Below, piece by piece: positions 10,262 through 29,400 of a stretch of 32,926 bases of DNA. Origin of the DNA: Pelatocladus maniniholoensis HA4357-MV3 (GTDB lineage: Bacteria; Cyanobacteriota; Cyanobacteriia; Cyanobacteriales; Nostocaceae). Every line of letters starts with the position of its first letter. Position 1 is the stretch's first letter. A program made the translations under genes and the position numbers. Where the stretch lies: assembly GCA_019359115.1 (NCBI GenBank), contig JAHHHW010000141.1, positions 1-32,926 on the forward strand, read 5' to 3'. The notes beneath the pieces are model-generated. The model did no database searches, had not been told where the DNA came from, and worked only from the letters and a program-made list of their open reading frames with translations.

Positions 10262-10333
10262 TTTTATGTGTAATCTAAGAAGTGCAAGTTAAGTTTTCAC
10301 TTATATCAGTTAATTTCAGCCAAGGTGAGTCAA

Positions 10334-10891
10334 ATGACCGAAATTATTAATATTGAAAGTATATCGACGCCACAGACAATGATAAACATTTCATTAAGCA
10401 GACAGATTAGTGCACCTACAGAAAAAGTCTGGGAGGCAATTTCTAAACCTGGTAATTTGAGCTATTGCCATCCTTTTTGTGAAAAAAATTCTGTGGAAAA
10501 ATGGCCAGGTATTGGCTCTGAAGATACTGTGTATTTTTATAGTGGGAAAGTTGCTACTCGATATTTCACAAAATGGATTGAGGGTGTTGGTTATGACTTG
10601 GATCTTACCATTCAAAGCATAAATGTTCAAGTAAATGTGATATTTCGTATTAGCAGTATAAAAGAAAATTATGAAAGTTTACTAAATATTTCAATCATAA
10701 TAAATACTCTTCCAACAACTTTAGAAAGTTCTCGCTCAGGTTATTTACATTTTATTCGTCGCTCACTTGAGAATTACTTAGATTCTGTTTTGAAAGGTTA
10801 TGAGTATTATATTACTACGGGACAAGCAGTCAAAAGAAACCAATTTGGTTCTCATCCTATTTTTTCTCCTACTATCGATATTATCGATTAG
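10334..10891 (+). CDS. SRPBCC (START/polyketide cyclase-like) protein
   Basis: This is a 185-residue protein with the pattern of the SRPBCC fold: an N-terminal strand NISLSRQISAPTEKVWEAIS, then KPGNLSYCHPFCEKN, a set of beta strands, and a C-terminal helix (FIRRSLENYLDSVLKGYEYY). Members bind hydrophobic ligands in a deep pocket. Some are aromatases or cyclases, many only bind lipids. I prefer the ATG at 10334 because AAGGTGAG sits a few bases upstream. A GTG three codons earlier (10325) is also in frame. Between the FAAL and the dimetal enzyme it could hold or present the fatty acyl substrate, which is inference. No catalytic residue can be assigned. Confidence 0.7.
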   Translation: MTEIINIESISTPQTMINISLSRQISAPTEKVWEAISKPGNLSYCHPFCEKNSVEKWPGIGSEDTVYFYSGKVATRYFTKWIEGVGYDLDLTIQSINVQVNVIFRISSIKENYESLLNISIIINTLPTTLESSRSGYLHFIRRSLENYLDSVLKGYEYYITTGQAVKRNQFGSHPIFSPTIDIID

Positions 10892-11299: not shown

Positions 11300-12670
11300 A
11301 TGAAACAAACTACTATTAACAATCTAGATACAGCGACACAACATTCCAAACAATCTCAGAAGGATGGAAAGAAAATTTTCAAAATTGTTGAGAATAACTA
11401 CCGGAATAACCTAGAGTCTGACTATACAGAGAAAATTAAAGAGCTAGACCGGAATTTCCATTATAGTAATAACAGCAATCATTATTGGACGGAGCCGGAA
11501 CAGTCAATTCTTTATGGAACGCCCTTATACGATGTAGCTTCATCTACGCAAAAGATAGCTCTTAATCACCTATTTTGGGTCTCACAGTACAACTATGCTG
11601 CCTATAGTGAAATAGAGACAATTGATTATAACCAAATCACAGCCGATTGTTTCTCTAATATAGGTAGCGATTATGAAATCATTTCACGCCAGTTAGAGCA
11701 TGAATCTGCTCAAGAACGTGTCCATATTCACGCTTTTTTCAAAGTTAATTACCAGACAATAAAAGCTTTGCTAGATAATCAAGCATTTAGTACTCCCATA
11801 GGAACGAAGCTTTCAGAGTATCATCAAATAGATTTGCAGCTTTCTAATTACCAATACTATGCTCTACGCTTCATAACTAAAATGATGCTGACTGGCAAAC
11901 AAAGATATGATTCACCCTATTTAAGAAAGTTAGAAGAAACCAGAAAGTTTACTTCAGCAACTACTAGAGGCTTTTTTCATGGACGTGGAGTAATACCTTC
12001 TCATCTAGTCAGATTCTTTGCCTTAAATTGGGGAAGTTCACCCTTTTTAGCTTCGCAATACTATACAGTACGCTTTATAGGTAATATGTTGCTCAAAAAT
12101 CAAGAGTACAGCATGTTTGCATATTTCAAAAAAATTAGCAACCAAGACAATTTTGTGCCAATACCAACAGCTCTATCCTACTATCACTTTTTGGATGAAG
12201 CTTTCCATACTTCAACTTCTCTATTTCTTGCCCGAGAGATACAGAAAACTTTTCCAAAACCAACTGCATACGAAAAATTTCTCATTAATTTAGCAGTCTA
12301 TTTGATTCAACGTATTAATTTGAGCCAACTTTCTGGGGTTGTCAGAAATCGCTTTTTTGGAGACGATATTTCGGGAATGATTGACATCTATAGACTGCTG
12401 AAAAGTTCTATATTTGCTATGTCTCACGAAGAAGCAGTTCATTGGGTGGAGAAATGTTTCTGCTATGAACATGAAGGTTTTCATCAATCAGCTCAATCTC
12501 ATAAGCGTTTGTTATCAGAGGCGCGCCAACTTTGCGAGCATCTCGACTACCTATGGCCTGCGAATCGTGAAATGCATATAATGGCTGAGGGCGGATCAAT
12601 TGATAAAGCTGTTCGCAACAACATCAAGACCTTTAAACAATTCTCAAAATTAAGCACTAGTTTAAACTAG
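11300..12670 (+). CDS. CylC/AurF-like dimetal-carboxylate enzyme, candidate fatty-acyl halogenase
   Basis: This 456-residue protein has a ferritin-like dimetal signature: E139-x2-H142 and H296-x3-E300-x2-H303. Both spacings match the iron ligands known for the N-oxygenase AurF (E136/H139 and H223/E227/H230). A third ExxH lies at E392-H395. AurF is much shorter. The length of about 455 residues and the company of a FAAL and a stand-alone ACP fit the CylC group of cyanobacterial dimetal-carboxylate halogenases, which chlorinate unactivated carbons of fatty acyl chains (cylindrocyclophane, columbamide). The ribosome-binding site GAGGAAG lies 5 bases before the start. No signal peptide or membrane segment is seen. 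The likely role is halogenation, or else hydroxylation, of the ACP-bound fatty acid. The dimetal fold is fairly secure. The halogenase assignment is inferred from family resemblance and context. Confidence 0.68.
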   Translation: MKQTTINNLDTATQHSKQSQKDGKKIFKIVENNYRNNLESDYTEKIKELDRNFHYSNNSNHYWTEPEQSILYGTPLYDVASSTQKIALNHLFWVSQYNYAAYSEIETIDYNQITADCFSNIGSDYEIISRQLEHESAQERVHIHAFFKVNYQTIKALLDNQAFSTPIGTKLSEYHQIDLQLSNYQYYALRFITKMMLTGKQRYDSPYLRKLEETRKFTSATTRGFFHGRGVIPSHLVRFFALNWGSSPFLASQYYTVRFIGNMLLKNQEYSMFAYFKKISNQDNFVPIPTALSYYHFLDEAFHTSTSLFLAREIQKTFPKPTAYEKFLINLAVYLIQRINLSQLSGVVRNRFFGDDISGMIDIYRLLKSSIFAMSHEEAVHWVEKCFCYEHEGFHQSAQSHKRLLSEARQLCEHLDYLWPANREMHIMAEGGSIDKAVRNNIKTFKQFSKLSTSLN

Positions 12671-13037: not shown

Positions 13038-14006
13038 ATGTCGATGCAGCCGAATGATATAGCAACAGAGGAGTTCCTTGTGGACTCACCCAAGAGGCAG
13101 AAAATAACAATTAAGAGTGATCGCCTGAAAATTCCACAAAAGCTTCATGCTTTGGCTATAATCTTAGTCCCTTTATTAGGTTCAATAGTTGCAGTTGCAA
13201 TGGTTCCCTACTTAAGTGTTGGTTTAGTAGAGATAGGGTTGTTGTCAAGTATGTATGTCTTGACCGTTATTGGAATTACTGTAGGTTTTCATAGGTATTT
13301 TGCCCACTCTGCTTTCCAGACCAATACTACTGTCAGAGTCATCCTTGCCATACTTGGATCTATGGCTTGTCAAGGTCCTCTGATTTATTGGGTAAGTAAT
13401 CATCGACGACATCACCAGTACAGTGATCAACCAGGTGATCCTCATTCACCCTATTTCAATGGAGATAAAACGCTAGGTAAAATTTCAGGGCTGTGGCATT
13501 CTTATGTTGGCTGGACATTTACTCATGAACTCACCAACACTTTCTTTTTTGCCAAAGACCTGCTTCACGATCCTGTGATTCTAAAGATCAATCGGCTTTA
13601 CTACTTTTGGTTCTTCTTGAGTTATGCTCTTCCTACCATTCTAGGAGGAATGATAAAAGGGACAAGTATAGGTTTCATTTCTGGATTTATTTGGGGGGGC
13701 TGTGTTCGTCTTTTCCTCTCATATGTTTTTGGGCTTAGTATTAACTCAATCACTCACCTCTATGGTAATCGTTCCTTTGATACTCGTGAGCAAAGTACAA
13801 ATAATTCTTGGCTAGCAATACCTACTCTAGGAGAAGCTTGGCATAATAACCATCATGCCTTCCCTAATTCTGCAAAATTTGGACTAAGCTGGTGGCAATT
13901 AGATCCAGGTTACTGGGTCGTTAACGCTCTTGAAAAGCTTGGATTAGTCTACTTTGTTAAAGCTCCTACGGTAGGAATGATAGAGTCCAAAAGGGTATTT
14001 AAGTAG
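13038..14006 (+). CDS. Membrane fatty acid desaturase (JamB-like, acyl-ACP type candidate)
   Basis: This is a 322-residue integral membrane di-iron desaturase. The three histidine boxes are intact: HRYFAH at 85-90, HRRHH at 122-126 and HNNHH at 269-273, with a further His in SITHLYGN. Hydrophobic stretches near residues 35-80, 100-120 and 190-230 fit the usual membrane helices. The order FAAL, desaturase, ACP recalls the jamaicamide JamA-JamB-JamC set, where the desaturase acts on the ACP-bound fatty acid and makes a terminal alkene or alkyne. The gene ends 59 bp before the ACP gene. The protein is also close to ordinary delta-9 acyl-lipid desaturases, so position and degree of desaturation cannot be told from sequence. 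An in-frame ATG two codons downstream is an alternative start. Confidence 0.9.
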   Translation: MSMQPNDIATEEFLVDSPKRQKITIKSDRLKIPQKLHALAIILVPLLGSIVAVAMVPYLSVGLVEIGLLSSMYVLTVIGITVGFHRYFAHSAFQTNTTVRVILAILGSMACQGPLIYWVSNHRRHHQYSDQPGDPHSPYFNGDKTLGKISGLWHSYVGWTFTHELTNTFFFAKDLLHDPVILKINRLYYFWFFLSYALPTILGGMIKGTSIGFISGFIWGGCVRLFLSYVFGLSINSITHLYGNRSFDTREQSTNNSWLAIPTLGEAWHNNHHAFPNSAKFGLSWWQLDPGYWVVNALEKLGLVYFVKAPTVGMIESKRVFK

Positions 14007-14065: not shown

Positions 14066-14410
14066 ATGGAAATTCAAAATGCTCAATTTACTCAGATTGC
14101 TACAGAAGTAGTAAATAACAATATCGATTCTAAAGAGGTTCACAAAGCTCTGCCCACATTAGCAGAGATTCAAACTTGGTTAATCATCCATCTAGCACAA
14201 CAGATGGGAATAGAACCGGATCAGGTAGATGTCAAAACTGCCTTTGAACGTTACGGTTTAGATTCTTCGGCAGCAGTAGGCTTGATTGGTGACCTAGAGG
14301 ATTGGCTGGGATATGAGCTTGATCCTACTCTCATCTATGATTACCCCAATATTGAGGCTCTATCACAGCATTTAGCTCATCCCTCTTTTGTTACCTTCGG
14401 CAGAGAATAA
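14066..14410 (+). CDS. Stand-alone acyl carrier protein
   Basis: This is a 114-residue carrier protein. Its phosphopantetheine site is GLDSS with Ser67, followed by the typical helix-II region (AAVGLIGDLEDWLGYEL) and the YDYPNIEALSQHL ending. It is longer than a fatty-acid-synthase ACP because of an N-terminal extension of about 30 residues, as in the JamC/CylB-type ACPs loaded by FAALs. It probably carries the fatty acid from the FAAL during desaturation and C-H functionalisation, then delivers it to PKS1 or PKS2. A purine-rich GAGAG lies upstream of the ATG. The last ten codons and the stop belong to a segment that is duplicated 176 bp downstream. Confidence 0.92.
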   Translation: MEIQNAQFTQIATEVVNNNIDSKEVHKALPTLAEIQTWLIIHLAQQMGIEPDQVDVKTAFERYGLDSSAAVGLIGDLEDWLGYELDPTLIYDYPNIEALSQHLAHPSFVTFGRE

Positions 14411-14918: not shown

Positions 14919-14939
14919 GACTTGATACGATATCAAGTC
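14919..14939. repeat. 9-bp inverted repeat with 3-base loop
   Basis: GACTTGATA, loop CGA, TATCAAGTC is a perfect inverted repeat about 330 bp upstream of the methyltransferase gene. It may be an operator or a transcript hairpin. No T-tract follows. Confidence 0.55.
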
Positions 14940-15267: not shown

Positions 15268-16155
15268 ATGGCTACGAACACTGTCAAAATTCCTAATCCC
15301 GGTGCTTCATCAGAGGCACTTCGCCATCATTACGACGTTAGTAACGAATTTTTCTCTCTCTGGCTCGATCCAACACGTACTTATTCAAGTGCATTTTGGG
15401 AGGAAAATGAAGGATTTGATGCCCTCGAAACTGCACAGATGCGAAAACTTGATTTTCATATTGAACAGGCAAGAGTCAAAGGCGCTAAGCGAGTGTTGGA
15501 TATAGGGTGTGGTTGGGGTTCACTGTTGAGACGTCTTGTAGACGTTCATGGTGTTGAAACTGCTGTGGGGATTACTTTAAATAAGGCTCATGCAGAATGC
15601 ATTTTAGCTTGGGAACATCCAAAAATAGAAGTACATTTAGAAAGTTGGACAGAACACTCTCCAAAGACACATTATGACGGGATTATTTCATTGGAGGTTT
15701 TTGAACACTTTGCTAAGTTGGAACTTTCTCCAGAAGAAAAAGTAGCAGGCTATCGTACGTTTTTTTTGCGTTGCCATGACTGGTTGAAGCCTGGAGGTTG
15801 GATATCACTCCAAACTAATGTCTATGAGAATTCTCAAAAAGAGGACTTTAGTCAGTTTTTTGCTGAACAAGTTTTTCCAGAATCAGATCTAGCTCGCCAG
15901 TCAGAAATTTTTCAGGCAACTGATAAACTTTTTGAAGTTGTAGCATTTCGCAATTACCGTAAACACTACGTACGCACGCTGAAAACTTGGCTCAAAAGGC
16001 TAAAGGCAAACCGTTCTAAAGCAGTCTATCTAGTCGGAGAGGAAATAGTTGCCAGATATGAAAAATATTTGAGCCTTTCTATTATTGGTTTCCATTCAGG
16101 AACAATGAATGTTTCATGTATTACAATGCAGAGGCTCAATAACCCCCGTAAGTAA
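15268..16155 (+). CDS. SAM-dependent methyltransferase, cyclopropane-fatty-acid-synthase family
   Basis: At 295 residues this is the short CFA/mycolic-acid methyltransferase type. Landmarks are HYDVSNEFFSLWLDPTRTYS, the SAM loop VLDIGCGWGSLLRRL near residue 76, EVFEHF, and the C-terminal YVRTLKTWLKRL ... RYEKYL pattern. Compared by memory with CmaA1, the bicarbonate-binding cysteine (YSCAY) is a serine here (YSSAF), and the histidine of LLHTI is a glutamine (SLQTN). The Glu of FEHF is kept. That argues for simple methylation of a chain or an oxygen over cyclopropanation. It stands 44 bp before PKS1 and probably belongs to the same transcript. Its target (fatty chain, PKS intermediate or an enol/hydroxyl oxygen) is not determined. 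The ribosome-binding site is weak. Confidence 0.85.
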   Translation: MATNTVKIPNPGASSEALRHHYDVSNEFFSLWLDPTRTYSSAFWEENEGFDALETAQMRKLDFHIEQARVKGAKRVLDIGCGWGSLLRRLVDVHGVETAVGITLNKAHAECILAWEHPKIEVHLESWTEHSPKTHYDGIISLEVFEHFAKLELSPEEKVAGYRTFFLRCHDWLKPGGWISLQTNVYENSQKEDFSQFFAEQVFPESDLARQSEIFQATDKLFEVVAFRNYRKHYVRTLKTWLKRLKANRSKAVYLVGEEIVARYEKYLSLSIIGFHSGTMNVSCITMQRLNNPRK

Positions 16156-16199
16156 TGAACTAGCAACATAGGCAAATATCTCAAGGTAGGAGCATAGAA

Positions 16200-18905
16200 G
16201 TGGAATATGTAGCAGTTATCGGTCTTGGCTGTCGTTTTCCCAGTGCTAACAACCCGGAATTATTCTGGCAGCTCTTGCACAATGGAGTGGATGCTATCAC
16301 TGAGGTTCCAAAAGACCGATGGGATATTGAAGCCTTTTATGATGCAAAGCCAGTTACACCAGGGAAAATGAATACCCGCTGGGGAGGTTTTCTACAACAA
16401 GTGGATAGGTTCGATCCTAGCTTCTTTGGAATTTCTCCTCGTGAGGCTGAACAAATAGACCCACAGCAAAGACTGTTGTTAGAGGTAGCTTGGGAAGCTC
16501 TAGAAAATGCCGCAATAGTGCCGGAAAAGTTAGCTCATACTCAAACCGGAGTGTTTGTTGGTATTAGCAATGGTGACTACCATAGGCTTCTATATAGAGA
16601 TTACTACGGAATAGATGCATATAGCGGTACGGGTACTGCTGCTTCCATGGCTGCTAACCGCTTGTCCTATACATTGGCTTTACGGGGACCTAGTATAGTA
16701 GTAGACACTGCTTGTTCTTCTTCCTTAGTTGCAGTCCATTTCGCTCGTCAAAGCTTGCAGAATGGGGAGTCTAATTTATGCATAGTTGCAGGGGTTAACT
16801 TAATGCTGACTCCAGAGCCGACTATCACTTTCTCTCAAGCTCGCATGATGGCTGCTGATGGTCGGTGTAAGACCTTTGATGCTAGTGCTGATGGGTATGT
16901 TCGGGGAGAAGGCTGTGGTGTAGTCATTCTAAAGCGCCTTTGTGATGCTTATAAGGATGGAGACAATATTCTGGCAATCATTAGAGGTTCAGCAGTTAAT
17001 CAAAATGGTTTGAGCAACGGTCTTACGGCACCCAATGGCTCTGCACAACAAGCTGTCATCTGTCAAGCCCTAAAAAATGCTTGCTTGCGACCAGATGAAA
17101 TTAGTTATGTGGAGGCTCATGGTACTGGCACTTCTTTAGGAGACCTTATTGAAATTAAATCTTTGAAAACAGTATTAATGCAAGGCCGCTCACAAAAGCA
17201 ACCTTGTTGGATTGGGTCGGTTAAAACTAATATTGGTCATCTGGAAGCAGCTGCTGGTATTGCTAGTATGATTAAGGTGATACTCTCACTACAACATAGA
17301 GAAATTCCGCCTCACCTGCACTTGAAGCAGCTGAATCCGTATATTTCTCTGGAAGGAACTCCGTTTTTCATTCCTACTGAATCCCAACCTTGGTCTGCTG
17401 CTACAAAAAGTTGTTTTGCCGGAGTAAGTTCATTTAGCTTTGGTGGCTCCAATTGTCATGTAATTTTGGAAGAAGCAGCTGCGGTACCTATTACGACAGA
17501 TAGTGAGATTGAACGTCCCCTGCACATACTCACTATTTCGGCAAGAAGTGAGAAAGCCTTGCTCGAACTGGCACAAAATTATGCTAATTTCTTAACGTTT
17601 CATCCAAGTATATCATTAGCATCTGTTTGCTTCACTGCGAATACTGGGCGATCGCATTTTGGCCATCGCCTAGCAATTGTTGCTGAATCTACCTCAGAAC
17701 TATGCAAGCATTTACAGGCTTTTATCTCTGCTAAAGAGACTTCCAGAATAGTCAAAAGACAGCTGTCTAGTCGAAAGCGACCTAAGATAGCCTATCTCTT
17801 TACTGGTCAGGGTTCCCAGTATGTTGGTATGGGACGCCAACTGTATGATACCCAACCCACTTTTCGCCAAAGTCTTGAATACTGTAGTGAAATTTTACTT
17901 CCTTATTTAGATAAGCCTCTAATTGAAGTTTTATACCCTCAGCCAGGGTTAAATTCTGCCTTGGATGAAACAGCATGTGCTCAACCAGCTTTATTTGCTT
18001 TAGAATATGCTCTTTTCCAGTTATGGAAATCTTGGGGAATAGAACCAAGTGCAGTGATGGGTTATGATGTGGGAGAGTATGTTGCTGCTTGTGTAGCAGG
18101 AGTATTTAGTTTAGAAGATGGGTTAAAGCTGATTGTAGAACGAGGACGTTTAATGCAGGCTCTAAACCTAGAATGTGAAATGATAACGATAATGTCAAAT
18201 GAAGCCAAGGGAAGAGCAGTCATTCAGTCCTACACTCAACAAGCAACGATCAGCACCATTAATGGTCTCCAAGGTATTGGAATTTCTGGCGAGCCTCATC
18301 TTCTAAACAATGTTGCAGTAGTCCCAGAGTTAGAAGGAGCCAATACTATAGAATTACCTATTTCTCAAACTTTCCACTCTCCGTTAATAGAGCCAAGGCT
18401 GGCAGCATTTGCACAAGTAATCAGTAGTGTCACTTACTCACCTCCACAGATAAAATTGATTGCTAATGTCACTGGACAGTTGGCTACAGATGAAATAGCA
18501 ACCCCAGAATACTGGTATCGATATATGCATCAGCATATGCAATTTGCAGCTGGTGTACAGACTTTATATCAGCAAGGGCATGAGTTATTTTTAGAAATTA
18601 GTCCGAAACCGACTATGTTGGCGATGGGTCGGCAATGCTTACCAGAATCAGTAGGTGCTTGGTTGCCTAGTCTACATCCAGAACTGGAGGATTGGCAAAC
18701 TATGCTGGAGAGTTTAGCACAATTATATGTGCGTGGTGTGTCAGTAGATTGGTCTGGTTTTGATCGAGATTACCCTCGTCGCCCTCTACAACTGCCCACT
18801 TATCCTTTTCAAAGGCAACATTATTGGTTGCAGAGAAACGCAACTGAGAATAAAAGATTGCATACTTCACAAAGCCAGTCTACAAAAACTTATCCTGATA
18901 TCTAA
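16200..18905 (+). CDS. PKS1: ketosynthase with dead acyltransferase, no ACP (KS-AT0)
   Basis: This is a 901-residue type I PKS protein. The KS (about 1-425) has a full catalytic set: Cys172 in DTACSSS, His307 in EAHGTGT and His347 in NIGHLEAAAG. A linker leads to an AT-like domain (about 530-830) with GQGSQYVGMG intact. The active-site GHSxG is GYDVG, with Asp623 in place of Ser, and the catalytic His of SHAFHS is Gln723 (SQTFHS). The segment before it is also shortened and diverged. The AT should therefore be inactive. The protein ends with the usual post-AT motif PTYPFQRQHYW and a tail of about 25 residues. There is no ACP, KR, DH or ER. The start is GTG at 16200, supported by AGGAG at 16188-16192. 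It lies 41 bp before PKS2, so it must work with an ACP on another protein. Confidence 0.93.
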   Translation: MEYVAVIGLGCRFPSANNPELFWQLLHNGVDAITEVPKDRWDIEAFYDAKPVTPGKMNTRWGGFLQQVDRFDPSFFGISPREAEQIDPQQRLLLEVAWEALENAAIVPEKLAHTQTGVFVGISNGDYHRLLYRDYYGIDAYSGTGTAASMAANRLSYTLALRGPSIVVDTACSSSLVAVHFARQSLQNGESNLCIVAGVNLMLTPEPTITFSQARMMAADGRCKTFDASADGYVRGEGCGVVILKRLCDAYKDGDNILAIIRGSAVNQNGLSNGLTAPNGSAQQAVICQALKNACLRPDEISYVEAHGTGTSLGDLIEIKSLKTVLMQGRSQKQPCWIGSVKTNIGHLEAAAGIASMIKVILSLQHREIPPHLHLKQLNPYISLEGTPFFIPTESQPWSAATKSCFAGVSSFSFGGSNCHVILEEAAAVPITTDSEIERPLHILTISARSEKALLELAQNYANFLTFHPSISLASVCFTANTGRSHFGHRLAIVAESTSELCKHLQAFISAKETSRIVKRQLSSRKRPKIAYLFTGQGSQYVGMGRQLYDTQPTFRQSLEYCSEILLPYLDKPLIEVLYPQPGLNSALDETACAQPALFALEYALFQLWKSWGIEPSAVMGYDVGEYVAACVAGVFSLEDGLKLIVERGRLMQALNLECEMITIMSNEAKGRAVIQSYTQQATISTINGLQGIGISGEPHLLNNVAVVPELEGANTIELPISQTFHSPLIEPRLAAFAQVISSVTYSPPQIKLIANVTGQLATDEIATPEYWYRYMHQHMQFAAGVQTLYQQGHELFLEISPKPTMLAMGRQCLPESVGAWLPSLHPELEDWQTMLESLAQLYVRGVSVDWSGFDRDYPRRPLQLPTYPFQRQHYWLQRNATENKRLHTSQSQSTKTYPDI

Positions 18906-18946
18906 AGATTCAGAGTCAGATCTTTAATAGTTTAAATATTTGTATT

Positions 18947-21900
18947 ATGGAAGCCATAGCAATCATTGGTATAGGATGCCGTTTTCCCGGTGCTGAAAAT
19001 CCTGAAGCTTTGTGGTGTTTGTTAAGGGAAGGTTCACATTCAATCTCTGAAGTGCCACCGGAGCGTTGGAATATTAATGTTGATAACAATTTAGACCTGG
19101 ATAAGTTAAGAGAAAAGGGGGTTTACAAAGGCGCTTTCATACAACAAGTAGACAACTTTGACCCCGATTTCTTCAGAATTTCCCCACGTGAAGCTAAGAC
19201 TATGGATCCCCAGCAACGGTTTCTTTTAGAGGTTAGCTGGGAAACGATGGAAAATGCTGGAATCGCACCAAATACCTTGTCTGGTAGCAATACTGGAGTG
19301 TTCATTGGTATCAACAGTTATGATTACTCCTGGATTCAATTACAAAATCTCAGCAGTTCAAATGTTTACTCCAGTACTGGCAACTCTCATTGTATAGCTG
19401 CCAACCGCTTGTCTTATACATATAATTTTCGTGGTCCTAGTGTAGCCTTAGACGCGGCTTGTTCATCATCCCTAGTGGCGGTGCATTTAGCTTGCCAAAG
19501 TTTGCGCCTTGGAGAGTGCAATGCGGCTCTAGCTGGCGGCGTGAGTATGATGTTATCTCCAGAATGGTCTATTCTTCTGTCTCAATCAGGTATACTTTCA
19601 GCTGAAGGTCGTTGTAAAACTTTCGATGCTAATGCTGACGGATATGTGCGAGGAGAAGGCTGTGGTCTAGTCCTTCTCAAGCGTTACTCGGATGCACTTC
19701 GTGACAATGATAATATTCTGGCACTAATTAGAGGATCAGCAGTTAATCAGGATGGTCTTAGTAATGGACTTACGGCACCTAATGGACCAGCACAACAAGA
19801 AGTCATACGCCAAGCACTAAAAAATGCCCAAGTCTCACCAACCCAAATAAGTTATGTCGAAACTCAAGGTACAGGTACCTCCTTAGGGGATTCAATTGAA
19901 GTCAATTCTATAAAAGCAGTTTTGATGCCGGATCGGTCTCCATCTCAACCCTGTTGGATTGGATCGGTTAAGACAAATATTGGTCATTTGGAAGCTGCTT
20001 CTGGAATTGCCAGCTTAATTAAGGTAATACTGGCAATGCAACATGGGGAAATTCCACCTCATTTGAATTTCAGTAACCTCAATTCATATATTTCCATACA
20101 ACAAAATGAGCCGCTCTTAATTCCTAAATATCTGACACCATGGCAATCAGAAAAAAATAGCTGTTTTGCTAGTATAAATACTTTTGGATTTGGCGGAACT
20201 AATTGCCATTTGATTCTAGAAAAAGCTCCTACTATTGATGAAGTAAAAGTACTTAATGAGTATAAACGGTCTTTCAATATTACTACTCTGTCAGCAAAAA
20301 GTGAAAAGGCACTTAAGCAATTAGCACAACTTTATGAAGTGTATCTTCAAGCTAACTCACAAGCATCACTAGGAGATATTTGTTTTACGAGCAACACAGG
20401 ACGTGTACATTTTGAGTATCGACTTGCTGTAGTATCTAAAACTAATGCAGAGTTAAACAAGTGTCTGAAAGATTTTATTGCTGGGAAGAAGTCCAGTGGA
20501 TTGATAAGTGGCAAGGTAACCAAAAGAAAGCTACCTAAAGTAGCATTTCTCTATACTGGTCAAGGCTTTCAATACATTGGTATGGGACGTCAACTTTACT
20601 CTACCCAGCCAGTTTTTCGGCAAGCACTTAACTACTGCGATGAAATTTTGTGTTCTTATACAGGGAAATCGTTCCTAAAATTTATCTATAGAGAACCAGG
20701 TCAGACGGTTTCTCTTGAGCAAACTGCTTATACCCAACTATCAGCTCTGTTTGCCCTCGAATATGCCTTAACCCAGCTATGGCTATCTTGGGGAGTAGAG
20801 CCAACAGCCGTGATGGGACATGGTGTAGGAGAATATGTTGCTGCTTGTGTGGCTGGAGTTTTTAGTCTAAAAGAAGCGCTGAAACTAATTAGCAAGTATG
20901 CTTCCTTAATGCAAACTCTACCAGCTAACGGTCAGATGGTAGCCGTGTTTGCTGATGAAGCATCGATTCAAGCTGTGCTGACGCAAGAGCAGAAGATAGC
21001 TATTGCGGCCCTCAATAGCCCACAAAACACTGTGATTACCGGTGAACAAAAGATAATTGAGAAAGTTTGTGCTACTTTAAAGGCAGCCGGAATCAAAACG
21101 AAAAAACTAAAAACATTCCATGCTTTTCACTCCCCGCTAGTAGAGCCAATTTTGACAGAGTTTAGTGAGATAGCTGCCAGTACTACTTATGCAACACCTA
21201 AGATAAAGCTGATTTCTAATGTCACTGGTAAACCATTAACAACCGAAGTAATTACATCTGAGTATTGGTGTCGTCATCTCAGCCAGACGGTGCGATTTGC
21301 AGATGGGATGCAGACACTTTATAAAGAAGGATATGAAGTCTTTGTAGAAGTAGGACCTAAACCAATTTTGCTGGGGATAGGACGGCAATGCTTACCGAAG
21401 AGAGCAGGAATTTGGTTAGCAAGTCTGCGTCAAGGACGGGAAGATTGGCAGCAGATGCTAGAGAGTTTGGGGCATTTGTATGTACAAGGGATACCGATCA
21501 ATTGGTCAAACTTTAGCCAGGAATATCATCACCAACGAATCAGCTTACCGACATATCCTTTTCAGAAAGAACGTTACTGGCTTGAGAGAGTTGAGAAAGG
21601 ATATTCAAAAGTAGAAGCTATCTCTGAGACAAAAAGTCAAACTCCAATTATTGATCTTCTCAATGCAGGAGATATTGAAAAACTAGCTGAACAGTTGGAA
21701 AAAGCAAGTAATTTTTCGGAAACTCAAAAACAACTACTGCCAAAACTTTTGAAAGTTTTAGTCAAACAACACCAAAAGTATCTTCAAAACAAAGGTGTAC
21801 TAACTGAACATTATGATCCCTCATCAAACAATGGTGTGGTGTCAGATATAGTGAAGCAATTAAATAGTGCAAGTCTCGACAGACGCTTAGAATTTTTGAT

Positions 21901-22192
21901 TGCTTATCTTCAAGTTCAAATCGCTAAAGTTTTAGAACTCCCTTCATCTAGTCAACCTGATCCATATCAATCCCTACATGAGTTAGGGCTTGACTCTTTG
22001 ATGGGCATGGAGATTAAAAATCGGATTAAGACTGATTTAGGTTTAGATATACCCTTACAAATATATAGTGAAGGAATTAGCATTAAACAACTAGCTTCCG
22101 ATCTACTGCAACAATTTGCATTGGCAAGTCTAGTCCAATGGAAGTCTCAGTCCCACGAGCTCAGTGAGGATTTAGAGGAAATAACAATATGA
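18947..22192 (+). CDS. PKS2: KS0-AT0-ACP with missing catalytic residues
   Basis: This is a 1081-residue type I PKS protein. The KS has the nucleophile Cys172 (DAACSSS) and His347 (NIGHLEAASG), but the first catalytic His is Gln307 (ETQGTGT, codon CAA). This is the change seen in non-elongating KS0 domains, which can transfer acyl groups but not condense them. The AT-like domain (about 535-855) keeps GQGFQYIGMG and FHAFHSPL, but the serine of GHSxG is Gly626 (GHGVG), and the usual RGRLMQ arginine is replaced (YASLMQ). It should not load malonyl. A helical linker follows, then an intact ACP with Ser1017 (GLDSLM). There are no reductive domains. The acidic tail SEDLEEITI probably docks to the N-terminus of the next protein. 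The last four bases overlap the NRPS1 start (ATGA), giving translational coupling. The likely role is to receive or pass the acyl chain to the Cyc domain. Confidence 0.93.
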   Translation: MEAIAIIGIGCRFPGAENPEALWCLLREGSHSISEVPPERWNINVDNNLDLDKLREKGVYKGAFIQQVDNFDPDFFRISPREAKTMDPQQRFLLEVSWETMENAGIAPNTLSGSNTGVFIGINSYDYSWIQLQNLSSSNVYSSTGNSHCIAANRLSYTYNFRGPSVALDAACSSSLVAVHLACQSLRLGECNAALAGGVSMMLSPEWSILLSQSGILSAEGRCKTFDANADGYVRGEGCGLVLLKRYSDALRDNDNILALIRGSAVNQDGLSNGLTAPNGPAQQEVIRQALKNAQVSPTQISYVETQGTGTSLGDSIEVNSIKAVLMPDRSPSQPCWIGSVKTNIGHLEAASGIASLIKVILAMQHGEIPPHLNFSNLNSYISIQQNEPLLIPKYLTPWQSEKNSCFASINTFGFGGTNCHLILEKAPTIDEVKVLNEYKRSFNITTLSAKSEKALKQLAQLYEVYLQANSQASLGDICFTSNTGRVHFEYRLAVVSKTNAELNKCLKDFIAGKKSSGLISGKVTKRKLPKVAFLYTGQGFQYIGMGRQLYSTQPVFRQALNYCDEILCSYTGKSFLKFIYREPGQTVSLEQTAYTQLSALFALEYALTQLWLSWGVEPTAVMGHGVGEYVAACVAGVFSLKEALKLISKYASLMQTLPANGQMVAVFADEASIQAVLTQEQKIAIAALNSPQNTVITGEQKIIEKVCATLKAAGIKTKKLKTFHAFHSPLVEPILTEFSEIAASTTYATPKIKLISNVTGKPLTTEVITSEYWCRHLSQTVRFADGMQTLYKEGYEVFVEVGPKPILLGIGRQCLPKRAGIWLASLRQGREDWQQMLESLGHLYVQGIPINWSNFSQEYHHQRISLPTYPFQKERYWLERVEKGYSKVEAISETKSQTPIIDLLNAGDIEKLAEQLEKASNFSETQKQLLPKLLKVLVKQHQKYLQNKGVLTEHYDPSSNNGVVSDIVKQLNSASLDRRLEFLIAYLQVQIAKVLELPSSSQPDPYQSLHELGLDSLMGMEIKNRIKTDLGLDIPLQIYSEGISIKQLASDLLQQFALASLVQWKSQSHELSEDLEEITI

Positions 22193-25100
22193 ACCTGAAT
22201 GAACTTTTAACTGAACTTTCTAAACGAAATGTTAAGGTATGGGCGGAAGCAGATAATTTGCGTGTTCGTGCGCCTAAGGAAGCTCTCACACTAGACTTAC
22301 GTAATTCTATAGCAGAGCATAAGGTAGACCTTCTGAGGTTACTCTGCGAAAGTAATTTTAGTATGCATGATGATGCTCTGCCTGCGGTTCTCCCAGTACT
22401 AGACGAACGCTATCAACCCTTTCCTCTTACCGATATTCAGTATGCTTATTGGGTGGGACGTAGTGGAGAGTTTGAATTAAGTAACGTAGCTACCCATGCC
22501 TATTTAGAACTTGAATGTAATGGCTTAGACCTAGAGCGGCTAAATTGTGCTTGGCAGCAATTGATTGAGCGACATGAGATGTTGCGGACTGTAGTACTGC
22601 CAGATGGTACACAAAAAATTCTCACAGATGTGCCTTTATACCAAATCTCGGTTTTGGATTTGCTTGGAGAAGATCCTGAAAGTATCAGGTTCAAAACTGA
22701 GGAAATTCGTCAACAAATGTCTCACCAGATGCTGCCAACTGACAAATGGCCTTTATTTGATATTCGAGTTGCTCATCTAAGCGAAACTTTCTTTCGGCTT
22801 TATCTTAGCTTTGATGCGTTAGTAACTGATTTGGGGAGCTTGCATCTTCTTTTTCAAGAGTGGAGTCAGCTCTACCAGAACCCAGAATTGGTTTTGCCTC
22901 AATTGGAACTTTCATTCCGCGATTACGTTTTAGCCGAAGAGCGCCTAGTAGGAACGCAACTATATCAGCGTTCACAAGCCTATTGGTTTAATCGTCTAGA
23001 TTCTCTGCCGCCAGCACCAGACCTGCCGCTAGCCAAAAATCCCAATTCTTTAAAACAGCCCCGGTTCCATCGTCGCACTTTTTGGCTGAATACAGAATAT
23101 TGGCAAAAGCTAAAGAAATATGCAACAGATGCTAATTTAACTCCCTCTGGAGTCTTGCTTGCAGCTTATGCTGAGATTTTGACAACTTGGAGCAAATCTC
23201 CTCAATTTACTATTGATCTAACTCTATTTAACCGTTTACCACTTCATCCTCAAGTCAATCAAATTGTTGGGGATTTTACTTCTGTAATACTGCTGCAGAT
23301 AGACAACTCAACGGTTAATGAATCCTTTGTCTCTCGTGCTGTCCGTCTCCAAAAACAACTTTGGCAGGATTTAGATCATCGCTACGTCAATGGAGTGCAT
23401 ATTCTAAGAGAATTGGCACGTAAAAAACGTAACTCTCCAAAGGCAATGATGCCTGTAGTCTTTACTAGTGCCTTGGGTGTTGGTTCGTTAAATAGCAATA
23501 GCCCTGGGTTAAGTCAATTTGGAGAAATTGTCTACGGCATTAGCCAAACACCTCAGGTCTGGCTAGACCATCAAGTCATTAAACAAGATGGGGGATTAGT
23601 TTTCAACTGGGATGCAGTAGAAGATCTTTTCCCCCCTGGAATGTTGGACGATATGTTCAATGCCTACTGCAATTTTTTGGTGCAACTAGCAACTCAGGAG
23701 CCAGTATGGCACTCAATGACAAGACAACTCGTTCCTCCAGAGCAATTGTCTCAACGAGTCGCGATCAATGCTACAAAGGCACCTCTGTCTGGTGAAATGC
23801 TACACACTCTATTTACAAGACAGGTAGAGCGTTGTGGTGACCGCTGTGCCATAATCTCACCCCAGCACACCCTGACTTACTCTGAGTTAAACAAATTAGC
23901 TCATCAAGTTGCTCATCAGTTGCGGCAGCTAGGAGCTTCTCCCAATCGTCTGATAGCTGTAGTTATGGAAAAAGGTTGGGAGCAAGTAGTTGCTGTACTA
24001 GGAATATTAATCTCTGGTGCAGCTTATTTACCAATTGATCCAGATTTACCAATTGAGCGCCAAAAGTATTTGCTCAAACAAGGGGAAATTCAAATAGTTT
24101 TGACTCAATCGTGTGTCAATGTAAAACTCGAGTGGTCGTCGGATATTCATAGAATAAATATTGATACTGAGAAGTTAACAGACCACAGTCCATCAACTTT
24201 GGAATCAGTTCAAAATCCAAAAGATTTAGCTTATGTAATCTATACTTCTGGCTCAACAGGTTTACCCAAGGGAGTAATGATTGATCACCAAGCTGCTGTG
24301 AATACGATTCTTGATATCAATCAATACTTCCAAATTGGAGAGCAAGATTGTATACTAGCACTTTCAGCTTTGAACTTCGATTTATCAGTTTACGATATCT
24401 TTGGTATTTTAGCTGCGGGAGGAACTATTGTTATTCCTAAAGCAACAGCAACTAGAGACCCAGCCCACTGGATAGATCTGATGACGCACTATCAAGTGAC
24501 CTTATGGAACTCGGTTCCGGCCTTGATGCAGATGCTTGTTGAATATATCAAACTCCACCCAGACAAAGTTCCTTCGTCTTTACGTTTGACTCTTTTAAGC
24601 GGAGATTGGTTGCCACTAAACTTACCTACTCAAATCAAAACTTTATGGCCGAAAGCTCAGGTGGTGAGTTTAGGAGGGGCAACTGAGGCATCAATTTGGT
24701 CTATTTTTTATCCAATCGAGAATATTTCTCCTGAATGGAAAAGTATTCCTTACGGTCGGTCTTTAACAAACCAAAGTTTTTATGTTTTCAATGAGTTACT
24801 TGAACCTTGCCCTATATGGGTGAGTGGACAACTTTACATTGGAGGAGTTGGGTTAGCCAAAGGTTACTGGCGCGATCAAGAAAAAACTCAAAATAGTTTC
24901 ATTACACATCCACGCACAAAAGAGCGTTTGTATAAAACAGGTGATCTAGGGCGTTACTTACCGGATGGTAATATTGAGTTCCTGGGCAGAGAAGATTTTC
25001 AAGTTAAAGTTAACGGCTACCGAATTGAATTAGGCGAAATAGAAGTTGCACTGAAACAACATCCATTGATAACTGATGCAATTGTTACTGCTATTGAGCA

Positions 25101-26439
25101 GGGAAAAGAGCAAAAGCAACTAGTTGCTTATGTTATTTCTAACTTAGAGAGAAAGTCTGCCCATTTGCAGAAAGAATCAGCAGTTCTACCTGTAGAAGCA
25201 ATTGAATTCCAAAAATTAGAAGGAGTGATAACTGATCCTGTAGAGCGTATTGAATTTAAGCTAAGACAACCAGGACTACAATCATTAGATCAAAATCACC
25301 TAACTGTAGAGCTAATTAGACCAGAATTTAATCAGACTTTAACTCAAACTTATCTAAAACGCCAAAGTTACCGCCAAATGTTGGAGGAGCCAGTCCCATT
25401 TGAGCAATTCGGCCTCTTTTTGAGCTGTCTCATGCAGATGAAAGTCAATCACATTCCTTTACCAAAATATCGCTATCCCTCTGCTGGCAGTCTTTACCCT
25501 GTCCAAACTTACCTACTAATTAAACCAAATCGCGTAGAAAAACTGGAAGGTGGCATTTATTACTATCACCCAGCAGAACATCGTTTAGTATTGATAAAAG
25601 CTGTTACTAACATTAGTGAGATTGAAGATAGCCTTTATAGTGGCTCAAATAAATCAATATTCGAGCAAGCAGCTTTTGCTTTATTTCTTATTGGGCAAAT
25701 GGATGCAATTAATCCTATGTATGGAGGATGGGCTAGAGATTTTTGTCTGTTAGAAGCCGGTTACATGAGTCAATTATTGATGGATACTGCACCAGATTAT
25801 GAGGTTGGTTTATGTCCAATTGGACATTTAAATTTTGAAAAGCTAAGAAATTTATCTGGTTTATCATCATCAAAGCATATTGTTCTGCATAGTTTTATCG
25901 GCGGAAGAATTATCTTAGAGCAAACAAAACAGTGGTTGAGATCTACAGCTTCTCCAACTGATGAATCAGCATTAACTTCAGAGAAACTGAGTATTTATTT
26001 ACAGCAAAAACTACCTAGCTATATGGTGCCTTGTATCTATGTTTTTTTAGATAAGCTACCATTGACACCTAATGGCAAGATAGACCGCAAGTCCTTACCA
26101 ATTCCAGATGCAGCTAGTTTAGAGTTGCCAGCAGCTTTTGTGGCTCCCTACACTGCTACTCAAAAAACTATAGTCGTTATCTGTGCTGATGTACTAGCTC
26201 TAGAAAAAATTGGCATACACGATAACTTAATTATGCTGGGAGTAGACTCTCTACAAGCTACTCAAATTGTTGCTCGTTTGCGGAAAATATTTCCAGTGGA
26301 ACTACCTCTGCGTCAATTGTGGGAGAGTCCTACCATAGCAGACTTAGCAGAATACATAGACATAGCTCTTTGGGCTACTTCAGATCAGCAAAATCGTAGT
26401 GATTTCAATAATTCTGAAAGAGAGGAAGGAGAAATATGA
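22189..26439 (+). CDS. NRPS1: docking-Cyc-A(Cys)-Ox-PCP, thiazole-forming module
   Basis: This is a 1416-residue NRPS that condenses the acyl chain with cysteine, cyclises it to a thiazoline and oxidises it to a thiazole. The order is: TubC-type docking domain (1-55); heterocyclisation domain (about 75-500) with the DxxxxD motif at 209-214 (DALVTD) in place of HHxxxDG; A domain with YTSGSTGLPKG near 685; FMN-dependent oxidase inserted between A8 and A9 (about 985-1265, with RYPSAGSLYPVQTY near 1094); A9/A10 with NGKIDRK; and PCP Ser1354 (GVDSLQ). Reading the substrate code against GrsA by eye gives DLYNLSLIWK, the classical cysteine code. The architecture matches EpoB and other Cyc-A-Ox-PCP modules. 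AGAGGAA precedes the start. The start overlaps the PKS2 stop, and the stop overlaps the NRPS2 start. The acidic tail SEREEGEI is a candidate docking peptide. Confidence 0.95.
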   Translation: MNLNELLTELSKRNVKVWAEADNLRVRAPKEALTLDLRNSIAEHKVDLLRLLCESNFSMHDDALPAVLPVLDERYQPFPLTDIQYAYWVGRSGEFELSNVATHAYLELECNGLDLERLNCAWQQLIERHEMLRTVVLPDGTQKILTDVPLYQISVLDLLGEDPESIRFKTEEIRQQMSHQMLPTDKWPLFDIRVAHLSETFFRLYLSFDALVTDLGSLHLLFQEWSQLYQNPELVLPQLELSFRDYVLAEERLVGTQLYQRSQAYWFNRLDSLPPAPDLPLAKNPNSLKQPRFHRRTFWLNTEYWQKLKKYATDANLTPSGVLLAAYAEILTTWSKSPQFTIDLTLFNRLPLHPQVNQIVGDFTSVILLQIDNSTVNESFVSRAVRLQKQLWQDLDHRYVNGVHILRELARKKRNSPKAMMPVVFTSALGVGSLNSNSPGLSQFGEIVYGISQTPQVWLDHQVIKQDGGLVFNWDAVEDLFPPGMLDDMFNAYCNFLVQLATQEPVWHSMTRQLVPPEQLSQRVAINATKAPLSGEMLHTLFTRQVERCGDRCAIISPQHTLTYSELNKLAHQVAHQLRQLGASPNRLIAVVMEKGWEQVVAVLGILISGAAYLPIDPDLPIERQKYLLKQGEIQIVLTQSCVNVKLEWSSDIHRINIDTEKLTDHSPSTLESVQNPKDLAYVIYTSGSTGLPKGVMIDHQAAVNTILDINQYFQIGEQDCILALSALNFDLSVYDIFGILAAGGTIVIPKATATRDPAHWIDLMTHYQVTLWNSVPALMQMLVEYIKLHPDKVPSSLRLTLLSGDWLPLNLPTQIKTLWPKAQVVSLGGATEASIWSIFYPIENISPEWKSIPYGRSLTNQSFYVFNELLEPCPIWVSGQLYIGGVGLAKGYWRDQEKTQNSFITHPRTKERLYKTGDLGRYLPDGNIEFLGREDFQVKVNGYRIELGEIEVALKQHPLITDAIVTAIEQGKEQKQLVAYVISNLERKSAHLQKESAVLPVEAIEFQKLEGVITDPVERIEFKLRQPGLQSLDQNHLTVELIRPEFNQTLTQTYLKRQSYRQMLEEPVPFEQFGLFLSCLMQMKVNHIPLPKYRYPSAGSLYPVQTYLLIKPNRVEKLEGGIYYYHPAEHRLVLIKAVTNISEIEDSLYSGSNKSIFEQAAFALFLIGQMDAINPMYGGWARDFCLLEAGYMSQLLMDTAPDYEVGLCPIGHLNFEKLRNLSGLSSSKHIVLHSFIGGRIILEQTKQWLRSTASPTDESALTSEKLSIYLQQKLPSYMVPCIYVFLDKLPLTPNGKIDRKSLPIPDAASLELPAAFVAPYTATQKTIVVICADVLALEKIGIHDNLIMLGVDSLQATQIVARLRKIFPVELPLRQLWESPTIADLAEYIDIALWATSDQQNRSDFNNSEREEGEI

Positions 26440-29400
26440 AAACCGTTCCCGAGCTATTGTCATATATTCGTCAATTAGGTATAGATCTTTGGGTAGATGG
26501 TAACTCTTTGCGATACAGCGCACCCAAGGAAGTAATGACACCGATTTTAAGTGCACAGTTAGCTGAACGCAAAAACGAAATTATTACCTTTCTTAATGGT
26601 TTCAAATCAGCATATACTTCTACTCTTTTACCACTGCAACCGATTGCAAGAGATGGAAAAATTCCACTATCTTCTGCCCAACAGCGATTGTGGTTTCTAG
26701 AACAACTAGAGGGAGATAGTGTTCCTTATAATGAGTTGGGAGCGTTGAGCATTGATGGCAGACTTAATATAGTGGCTTTAGAAGTAACTCTCAATGAAAT
26801 AGTTCGGCGTCATGAAGTTTTACGAACAAATTTTCCTAGTGTCAATGGGTCTCCCGTCTGTAAAATTTTCCCATTTCTAAAAATAGATTTGCCTATAATA
26901 GATTTGCAGACTTTTTCAGAAGTCGAGCAGTTTACCAAAGTTCAACAATTAGCTGCTGAACTAGTCCAACATCCCTTTGATCTAGCCAATGATCCCTTGT
27001 TGAGATTTAGGCTACTGCGACTAGGAGAACGATCGCATGTGCTAATTTTAGTTATGCATCACATCGTTTTTGATGGTAGGTCAATCAATGTATTTTTCAA
27101 CGAACTAGCAGTATTGTATGAGGCTTTTAGAAACAATCAAATCTCTCCCCTACCAGATTTGCCAGTTCAATATGCTGACTTTGCCGCATGGCAGCACCAA
27201 TGGCTAACTGGTAAATTTTTAGAAAAACAGCTTAACTATTGGAAACAAAAGCTTGCCAACGCTCCTGCTTTGTTAAAACTTCCTACTGATCAACCACGAC
27301 CTGCTGTTCAAACTTTTCGAGGAGCGCATCACAATTTTGCTCTACCTAAAAAACTAAGTGAAGCATTAGTTGCTTTAAGCAAGCGTAAAGAAGTTACCCT
27401 TTTTACAACATTAATAACAGCATTCCAAATATTGCTTTACCGATATAGTGGGCAGGAAGATATTTTAGTTGGTACGCCTATTGCCAACTTAGATATTACT
27501 GACATTGAAGGATTGATTGGCTTTTTTGCTAATACTATAGTTGTACGCACTAAAATAACAAACAAGATTAGCTTTGAACGGTTATTGGAACAAGTCCAGG
27601 AAACACTTTTAGAAGCTCAGGCTCATAGAGATGCTCCTCTAGAGCACATAATAGAAGCTCTACAGCCACAAAGAAGCTTGAGTTACACTCCTCTATTTCA
27701 GGTACTATTCATTTTCCAGGATACTCCAATCACAGAGATTAATTTAAAAGATTTAACTTTTAGACCATTAGCAGTAGAAAGTGGTATTTCAAAGTTTGAC
27801 ATCAGTATATTATTAAATAATACTGCTCAAGGTCTGACAGGATGGTGGGAATACAATGCAGATTTATTTAATGTAACCACCATAGAGCGGATGGCAAATA
27901 ACTTTGAAACTTTACTTGAAAGTATTGTTACTGATTCTCATCAACTGGTTACACATCTGCCCTTGTTAAATGAAGCGGAACAGCACTGGCTATTGGTAGA
28001 GCAAAATCGCAATCACGTGAGTTTACTACAGGAAAAGTATATTCACCAAAAATTTGAAGAGACTGTGAAGCGATCGCCTGAAAATATAGCAGTGATTTTT
28101 CAAGAGCAGCAGCTGACATATCAAGAGTTAAACAAGCGAGCCAATCAATTAGCACATTACTTGCAGAAACTAGGTGTGGGAGCAGATGTGCTTGTTGGCA
28201 TCTGTATAGAACGTTCTGTTGAGATGGTGATAGGTCTTTTAGCAATTCTCAAAGCAGGTGGAGCTTATGTACCTTTAGATCCAGCCTATCCTAAGAATCG
28301 CTTGGCCTTCATGATCTCGTATTCTCAATTGTCAGTACTCTTAACTCAACAAAAATTAGTGGCAGAACTGCCAGAAAATAAAGCACATTTGGTTTGCCTA
28401 GATACAAACTGGGAAACAATCTCTCTCGAAACAGAGGAAAATCCTTGTAGTAACTTGATGCCTGAAAACCTGGCATATGTGATTTACACTTCAGGATCTA
28501 CTGGTCAGCCTAAAGGTGTAATGGTTGAGCATGGTCAAGTTGTAAATTTCTTTACTGGAATGGATTTTCGCATTGGTAGTGATTCCCCCGGTACATGGTT
28601 GGCAGTTACAACTATTTCTTTTGATATCTCCGTCTTAGAGTTACTGTGGACACTTACGCGAGGTTTCCAAGTAGTGGTTTATACGGTGTATAATTCCTTT
28701 TTCTCTTCCATAGAGCCACAGGCTGAAGAAGCAAGTAAAGAAGATGTTGATTCTGTTATATCTAGTCTTCACCGTGTAGACCAAGTCAAGGAATTAAATG
28801 ATATCAGAAAAGAAATAGAAAAACATGATTACTCTTTACCTGCACAGATTATAAGGCACAATGTTACTCACTTGCAGTGTACACCTTCTCTAGTAAGGAT
28901 GCTAATCCTAAACTCGGAGACGCTCAAACCCCTACGGTCTCTTCAGAAACTCATATTGGGGGGAGAAGCACTTTCTGCTGAGCTTGCCAATAAGCTCAAT
29001 GAAGTAGTTTCAGGTGAAGTTCTCAATATGTATGGACCGACAGAGGCTACTATCTGGTCTACAACTTATACTGTCGGTTCATCTAAAAAAATCGTTGCCA
29101 TAGGTAAACCAATTGCAAACGTTCGCGTATATGTTCTAGATCAGCATTATCAACCAGTTCCTATTGGAATACCTGGTGAATTGTTTATTGGTGGTGCGGG
29201 TGTTGCTCGAGGTTATCTAAATAGATCTGAGTTAACTACTGAAAGATTCATCCCAGATACGTTCAGTAACGATCCCAAAGCGCGAATGTATAAGACAGGT
29301 GATTTAGTTCGCTATTTACCGGATGGTAACATTGAGTTTTTGGGTCGCATCGATCAGCAAATTAAGATTCGTGGCTTCCGCATTGAGCTGGGAGAGATTG

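Follow-up and report, generated by a model that had tools for sequence, protein, structure and literature searches.

A probable non-elongating relay module with altered ketosynthase and acyltransferase sites in a fatty-acid-started gene cluster of Pelatocladus maniniholoensis

Contig JAHHHW010000141.1 of the cyanobacterium Pelatocladus maniniholoensis HA4357-MV3 carries a biosynthetic cluster between positions 8429 and 32405 of the 32,926-nucleotide stretch analysed here (the window). It runs from a fatty acyl-AMP ligase (FAAL), the presumed loader of a fatty acid starter, to two nonribosomal peptide synthetases (NRPS1 and NRPS2). Two adjacent polyketide synthase genes (PKS1 and PKS2) lie between them, each encoding a ketosynthase (KS) and an acyltransferase (AT). 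Both ATs lack the catalytic serine, and the KS of PKS2 also lacks its condensation histidine. PKS2 is probably a non-elongating relay that hands the FAAL-loaded fatty acyl chain to NRPS1. The genes are as follows, with KS0 and AT0 denoting domains with altered catalytic residues.

8429..10261, + strand: FAAL (PF00501, E 5e-62; several FAAL models are among the best NCBIfam matches, none of them reaching its cut-off)
10325..10891, + strand: SRPBCC-like small protein (PF10604, E 3e-4, below cut-off)
11300..12670, + strand: homologue of CylC-like dimetal-carboxylate halogenases (PF11583 only below cut-off; no NCBIfam match)
13038..14006, + strand: fatty acid desaturase (PF00487, E 5e-23)
14066..14410, + strand: free-standing acyl carrier protein (ACP), presumed partner of the FAAL (PF00550, E 8e-15)
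15268..16155, + strand: CMAS-type methyltransferase of the cyclopropane synthase family (PF02353, E 4e-59)
16200..18905, + strand: PKS1, KS-AT0 without an ACP (Pfam domains, alignment and direct reading of residues)
18947..22192, + strand: PKS2, KS0-AT0-ACP, the proposed non-elongating relay (Pfam domains, alignment and direct reading of residues)
22189..26439, + strand: NRPS1, with TubC_N, cyclization (Cy), adenylation (A), oxidase (Ox) and peptidyl carrier protein (PCP) domains, presumed to turn cysteine into a thiazole (Pfam; motifs)
26436..32405, + strand: NRPS2, with TubC_N, condensation (C), A, methyltransferase (MT), PCP and thioester reductase domains (TIGR01746, above cut-off)

Every gene from the FAAL to NRPS2 is on the + strand, and 4-base overlaps join the PKS2 stop to the NRPS1 start and NRPS1 to NRPS2. 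No ketoreductase (KR) domain is found among the Pfam matches of the ten cluster proteins scanned. The CylC name is applied from context; relatives of this protein adjoin FAAL, ACP and PKS genes in many of the stretches fetched for comparison. Similarly, we take the condensation-type domain of NRPS1 to be a Cy domain and its A domain to be cysteine-specific, judging by eye from characteristic motifs and the nitroreductase-type Ox insert. Just upstream of the FAAL, at 7525-8301, lies an open reading frame (ORF) that by eye looks like a transposase.

In the AT of PKS2, the catalytic serine is replaced by Gly626 (GGT, 20822-20824, + strand) within MGHGVGEY and the carboxylate-binding arginine by Tyr651 (TAT, 20897-20899, + strand) within KYASLMQ, while the catalytic His728 (CAC, 21128-21130) is retained in HAFHSPL. 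A sequence-only reading of the window had reported these three features, and direct inspection of the residues bears them out, as does alignment with the curacin KS-AT protein CurL (PDB 4mz0; E 2.1e-136), where the two lesion sites face GHSVG and RGRLMQ, and His728 faces HAFHS. Absent from that reading is a lesion in the KS, in which the condensation histidine of HGTGT is Gln307 (QGTGT; CAA, 19865-19867, + strand). The transacylation Cys172, in AACSSS, and His347 are both retained. Keeping the transacylation cysteine is characteristic of KS0 domains. The ACP is intact (PF00550, residues 988-1050), with its phosphopantetheine-site Ser1017 encoded at 21995..21997 (+ strand). Because both Ser and Arg are gone, the AT should be unable to charge this ACP, and because the KS moreover lacks the histidine for decarboxylative condensation, no extension is expected at PKS2. 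Though dead, both AT domains of the window are full length, and the AT fold of PKS2 is best read as retained as a spacer. A structure model of PKS2 built from eight sequences was poor (mean pLDDT 47.7) and was not used.

The AT of PKS1 is damaged differently, as the sequence-only reading had held, but not in the way it described. The catalytic histidine it gave as lost is retained in the alignment (His726, the last H of QTFH, which we take to be the catalytic residue), as is Arg648, and the loss is that of the serine, replaced by Asp623 (GAT, 18066-18068). The serine of GHSxG that marks a functional cis-AT is therefore missing from both proteins, as Asp623 in PKS1 and Gly626 in PKS2. The KS of PKS1 has its complete catalytic set (Cys172, His307 and His347) and is not classed as KS0, because the condensation His307 is there. 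By eye, the protein terminates shortly past the post-AT linker and resembles an elongation module cut short. Most likely PKS1 is what remains of such a module after loss of the ACP and AT, with its KS possibly retained to accept chains. It could be a redundant chain acceptor of this sort, a remnant, or the seat of a single extension with malonyl loaded in trans.

Fischerella sp. PCC 9431 carries the same cluster, with 98.4% DNA identity across 14549-28739. PKS2 is 98% identical there, the AT motifs of both PKS genes and the QGTGT of PKS2 are identical, and the frames are open. Since this is a separate assembly with the same residues, sequencing error is ruled out as their source. When 58 other genomes (three of the same genus) were searched with PKS2, only PCC 9431 gave high identity, and the next best match reached 58%. 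The comparison with relatives that the sequence-only reading had proposed therefore yields a single orthologous cluster, which shares both altered GHSxG sites, and no orthologue with an intact GHSxG was found in the searched genomes.

PKS1, PKS2 and NRPS1 are open frames of near-equal length in both strains. Between them PKS1 shows 18 synonymous and 22 nonsynonymous differences and PKS2 17 and 21, each with an NG86 dN/dS of 0.36; relative to neutral expectation, the synonymous excess has a P of 0.0018 for PKS1 (40 differences) and 0.0020 for PKS2 (38), though these two-strain tests are weak because the divergence is small (dS 0.02-0.03). The excess is clear in the KS of PKS1 (13 of 22 changes, P 3e-4) and present in the AT of PKS2 (five synonymous, four nonsynonymous, P 0.04). 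The AT of PKS1 has none and five (P of zero synonymous 0.28) and the ACP of PKS2 one and three; by these counts the former may drift freely and the latter is uninformative.

Such counts bear on the possibility that the cluster is being lost, with the AT and PKS2 KS changes as early inactivations and nothing made. In favour of this are the zero-to-five ratio in the PKS1 AT, the long PKS2 branch on the KS tree (1.09) and the sharp divergence of NRPS2 and the genes after it between the strains from about 28742 onward (window 28742-32926). NRPS2 ends in a thioester reductase in the window, whereas the PCC 9431 protein has 2188 residues and no matched reductase; the end of that scaffold (L036) holds the NRPS1 end, NRPS2, a 440-residue protein, a P450-like protein (by eye), an ACP, a second CylC-like gene and further ORFs. 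The release end of the pathway thus seems to have been exchanged between the strains. Loss of the cluster is nevertheless highly improbable: the PKS1, PKS2 and NRPS1 frames are open in both strains, the synonymous excess holds for both PKS genes, the stop-start overlaps and docking parts are kept, and the same KS and AT changes recur elsewhere in modules whose KS is strongly constrained.

To place these changes, we compared 88 distinct KS-AT units (53, with 35 added), two of them from the orthologous PCC 9431 genes. In 56 units the AT serine is intact, and in 32 it is not; the latter include one locus, L137|14291, where a KS and an ACP occur without any recognisable AT. As the set mixes loci chosen by similarity, by CylC and by AT0, the frequency of AT0 is not readable from it. 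Where the serine is intact, the arginine is present in 56 of 56 units, the AT histidine in all 55 readable rows (L019 stops earlier, at a stop codon) and the KS triad Cys/His/His in 56 of 56. The 32 units with a dead or absent AT have Cys/His/His in 22 cases (six with HAVGT), Cys/Gln/His in nine and Cys/His/Tyr in one. The KS histidine is thus changed to glutamine in 9/32 units of this kind versus 0/56 intact ones (Fisher P 5e-5, indicative only, as the rows are related). In a further 17 units, chosen by similarity to PKS1 alone, the AT Ser, Arg and His and the KS triad are intact throughout (17/17). A module can therefore drop its AT yet keep its KS residues, as in PKS1, and no module in the set with a live AT lacks the KS histidine.

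On the KS tree of the 88 units, the dead-AT label requires 17 changes, and well-supported branches force at least 13 of these. The KSs of PKS1 and PKS2 both group among cyanobacterial KS-AT units, in a tree without trans-AT references. They are not sisters (stems of 0.40 and 1.09, respectively), and in that sense their AT lesions are independent, as had been proposed from the sequence. The histidine-to-glutamine change in the KS requires five changes on a more quickly built 90-row tree with cyanochelin included, corresponding to about five origins. This recurrence of QGTGT with a dead AT, cyanochelin B included, makes loading of PKS2 by FabD less likely than the lack of any extension there.

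We also searched genomes for ATs with a codon starting in G at the serine position, preceded by His or Tyr; other replacements escape this pattern, so its counts are lower bounds. Among 195 genomes of the order, 6 contain it, at seven places in all. Six are true ATs, two of them those of the window, and one match (genome G124) was dropped, as it lies in an apparent sensor kinase by eye. An any-residue version of the pattern gives 431 places in 129 of the 195 genomes, the kinase included. Across 217 genomes of the family, the G-codon pattern has 37 matches in 27 genomes: the 21 inspected, from 20 regions, are all PKS ATs, and four others are those of the window and PCC 9431. Among dead ATs outside the pattern, GGGVG in L079 and GQGVG in L082 were found via the CylC search, and GDGIG in the source genome was missed. 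The GDGIG protein (L140, 115-2889, contig C60) is a third AT-dead KS-AT protein of this genome; its small subdomain is missing, and its neighbours are a further PKS and an ORF resembling an NRPS.

Leaving aside the window and PCC 9431, the small subdomain, which bears the catalytic histidine, is partly or wholly missing from 24 of 27 dead ATs (the exceptions are L063, L129 and L134). The full-length dead ATs of the window perhaps represent an earlier stage than these deletions. Four pairs of orthologous AT-dead modules, drawn from seven proteins, have dN/dS values of 0.069-0.088 for the KS and 0.206-0.327 for the AT remnant; the single intact pair has 0.079 for the KS and 0.128 for the AT. Constraint persists on the KS of AT-dead modules and is weaker, though not absent, on the AT remnant. 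The sequence-only reading had suggested that selection was relaxed on AT chemistry while the proteins were kept. The synonymous excess and the raised dN/dS of AT remnants elsewhere agree with this, but the statement is too unspecific for PKS2, whose KS histidine has been lost as well.

In 14 of 15 rows with glutamine or HAVGT in the KS, a protein with a TubC_N-like start comes next, directly or past a small ORF, which in L059 matches an ACP in Pfam; in the exception, L137|14291, the next gene encodes a further KS-AT protein. Both a FAAL and a CylC-like gene lie in the same stretch in 10 of 13 such rows (PCC 9431 and L137|14291 excluded), whereas L126 has only the CylC-like gene, and neither gene is present in the stretches taken for L124 and L133. 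In 10 of 15 upstream-downstream pairs, the C-terminus of the upstream protein is FEI preceded by acidic residues. Other tails are DLEEITI in PKS2, EREEGEI in NRPS1 and DWIELEL in L132, and the L079 upstream ORF has no such tail. Judging from these C-termini and the placement of TubC_N, PKS2 probably passes its cargo to NRPS1 by docking.

Several other features of these loci deserve mention. A protein of about 620 residues recurs in L059 (12836-14674), L079, L120, L122-L124, L126, L128, L131 and L133, and also in the source genome (L142, 11520-13409). The L059 copy has TubC_N and a large stretch without a Pfam or NCBIfam match; the L142 copy is 61% identical to it and adjoins a CylC-like gene and an ACP, with no KS-AT0. 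This protein resembles an enzyme, so far without a name, that works on acyl chains carried by an ACP. Stand-alone HAVGT KS-AT0 proteins adjoining a CylC-like gene form a clade (L059, L079, L120, L126, L128 and L131). Downstream in L059 are an SDR and a GMC oxidoreductase by Pfam, and other ORFs appear glycosyltransferase-like by eye, so that the clade perhaps belongs to a chlorinated glycolipid family. A related stretch in genome G209 (L084 and L083) contains Cy-A-Ox, ACP, CylC-like and CMAS genes with the NRPS split into overlapping frames, and is perhaps a decaying relative.

Extension at PKS2 could still occur if malonyl were supplied from elsewhere. The PKS1 KS would then condense the fatty acyl chain with malonyl that FabD, or the AT of another cluster, had loaded in trans onto the PKS2 ACP, and the PKS2 KS0 would serve only as partner or relay. 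The PF00698 profile has 30 matches in the source genome, which encodes elsewhere a 292-residue stand-alone AT, presumably FabD (L139), and, in another cluster, a 419-residue AT-bearing ORF with GHSIG (L138). Together with the complete PKS1 triad and the synonymous excess in that KS, these ATs make the scheme conceivable. However, the only two matches on the contig are the dead domains themselves, which upholds the earlier statement that no functional AT is encoded between 8429 and 32405, and the discrete AT typical of a trans-AT PKS is absent from the contig. The free-standing AT that the sequence-only reading proposed to look for past 32926 did not appear either, as the final 19.7 kb of the PCC 9431 scaffold, about 12 kb of which, up to the scaffold end, lies past the end of the window, contains no AT-like match. 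PKS1 also has no ACP, no KR is among the Pfam matches of the ten scanned proteins, and the cyanochelin B and L132-type layouts described below favour unextended passage of the chain through a KS0-AT0-ACP placed in this way. We regard such a trans-loaded extension as unlikely.

The two KSs might instead act as a pair resembling a KS and its chain length factor, joining the fatty acyl chain to a non-malonyl, ACP-bound partner with no need for malonyl loading. The arrangement of two adjacent KSs, one complete and one not, that share a single integral ACP would suit such a heterodimer, and the nocuolin ketosynthase NocG is described as joining a pair of fatty acyl thioesters (PMC11837247). On the other hand, a second acyl donor is not evident in the window, and the QGTGT KS0-AT0-ACP occurs without a PKS1-like partner in L132 and after a working module in cyanochelin. 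Chain length factors lack the active-site cysteine, whereas Cys172 is present in both KSs. We give this heterodimer scarcely any credence. It is likewise very unlikely that the PKS1 KS uses an acyl nucleophile other than AT-loaded malonate, on the PKS2 ACP or another, with the PKS2 KS0 as a non-catalytic partner. If such an AT-independent condensing pair existed, the carbon skeleton would not be predicted by any colinear rule.

The relay we favour can be outlined from the residues, the domain order, the conservation between two strains, the recurrence and the signature shared with cyanochelin, from which we infer the chain flow, tailoring, docking, lack of extension and role of PKS1. The FAAL (8429) would charge the free ACP (14066) with a fatty acid, on which the desaturase, the CMAS-type enzyme and the CylC-like enzyme could tailor the chain. 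The chain would then move to the PKS2 KS cysteine and on to the PKS2 ACP, with no malonate added. Through the acidic C-terminal tail of PKS2 and the TubC_N of NRPS1, the ACP would present it to the Cy domain, which would couple it to cysteine and, with Ox, form a thiazole.

Several points weigh against this relay. It requires no second KS protein, and PKS1, whose KS remains condensation-competent, is poorly explained. L139 and L138 are ATs from which the PKS2 ACP could receive malonyl in trans. A dead AT alone does not imply a non-elongating KS, as 22 of the 32 AT-dead rows keep Cys/His/His. The counts in the PKS1 AT (0/5) and the PKS2 ACP (1/3) are compatible with drift in those parts. The cluster has no proven product, so the relay is argued from precedents; among these, the KS of PKS2 is not close to either the cyanochelin KS0 or L132, indicating a parallel in signature and not in descent, and it is only the layout that ties L132 to the chlorosphaerolactylate/nocuolactylate type.

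The closest known parallel is the cyanochelin B cluster of Leptolyngbya sp. NIES-3755 (AP017310.1). There, a FAAL-ACP-KS-AT protein whose KS and AT motifs are intact is accompanied by BAU16014, which starts with KS(EAQGTGT)-AT(GYGVG, small subdomain deleted)-ACP-Cy-A. The Fig. 1 legend of the cyanochelin B paper lists a KS0 defined as a ‘non-elongating’ ketosynthase (PMC12628792); the assignment of this label to the QGTGT domain of BAU16014 is our own. According to the NMR data of that paper, a 15-carbon chain sits on a CHOH, followed by one methylated quaternary carbon directly on the methyl-thiazoline, and the ketoreductase of CcsC is assigned to the CHOH (PMC12628792). The single two-carbon unit is accounted for by the first KS-AT, which leaves none for the QGTGT module. 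PKS2 shares with BAU16014 the KS change from His to Gln, the AT change from Ser to Gly, the ACP, the cysteine cyclization module that comes next and the FAAL-started line. Unlike PKS2, the cyanochelin KS0-AT0-ACP is fused to Cy-A, its AT has lost the small subdomain, and one working elongation module precedes it.

A second parallel is L132, which has a FAAL, an ACP, a CylC-like gene and a KS(QGTGT)-AT0-ACP protein, followed by TubC_N-C-A-KR-PCP-thioesterase (TE), with no other AT match within the 20 kb read. The window has the same set up to a TubC_N-bearing NRPS, but it has two KS-AT0 proteins where L132 has one, and Cy-A-Ox in place of C-A-KR-PCP-TE. We liken the domain order of L132 to that of ClyF and NocQ. 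Those proteins are called typical depsipeptide synthetases (PMC12184294).

A changed or missing HGTGT is a known mark of KS0 domains in the trans-AT PKS of swinholide and in algal PKSs (PMC5772238, PMC4661987). Compared with these, the KS0 of PKS2 sits in a cis-AT-type module with a full-length dead AT, and in the algal KS0s the histidine is changed to serine and the cysteine is shifted too (PMC4661987). CurL is the nearest solved sequence to the AT region of PKS2 (aligned over 10-428 of 428); it keeps GHSVG, RGRLMQ and HAFHS, whereas PKS2 is without the Ser and Arg. The term ‘AT0’ in the reedsmycin paper was set aside, as it is a module number there and not a dead AT (PMC6006980). As a lead by name and genus alone, the cluster product may be fischerazoles A-C, for which a C16:0 FAAL substrate was hypothesised (PMC11837247) and which are also named in PMC11880066. 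In this cyanobacterial group, two orphan clusters have been reported in which a FAAL-like AS domain adjoins a fatty acid desaturase (Micallef et al. 2015, PMC4558948).

Among the open-access matches listed, as far as their text was available, none describes QGTGT paired with a dead cis-AT across cyanobacterial fatty-acid clusters, though an unseen report is quite possible. Product prediction for cis-AT systems normally assumes one extender unit per KS-AT-ACP. The combination of QGTGT and a dead AT, with about five origins among the cyanobacterial units examined, marks a non-adding module in the sole pathway with a fully determined structure. Reading both motifs would correct the predicted structures of fatty-acid-started cyanobacterial clusters, many of which have CylC-type halogenases, and the product of the cluster in the window would directly test the rule. 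PKS2 would join the KS0 domains already described in trans-AT and algal PKSs and the one listed for cyanochelin B.

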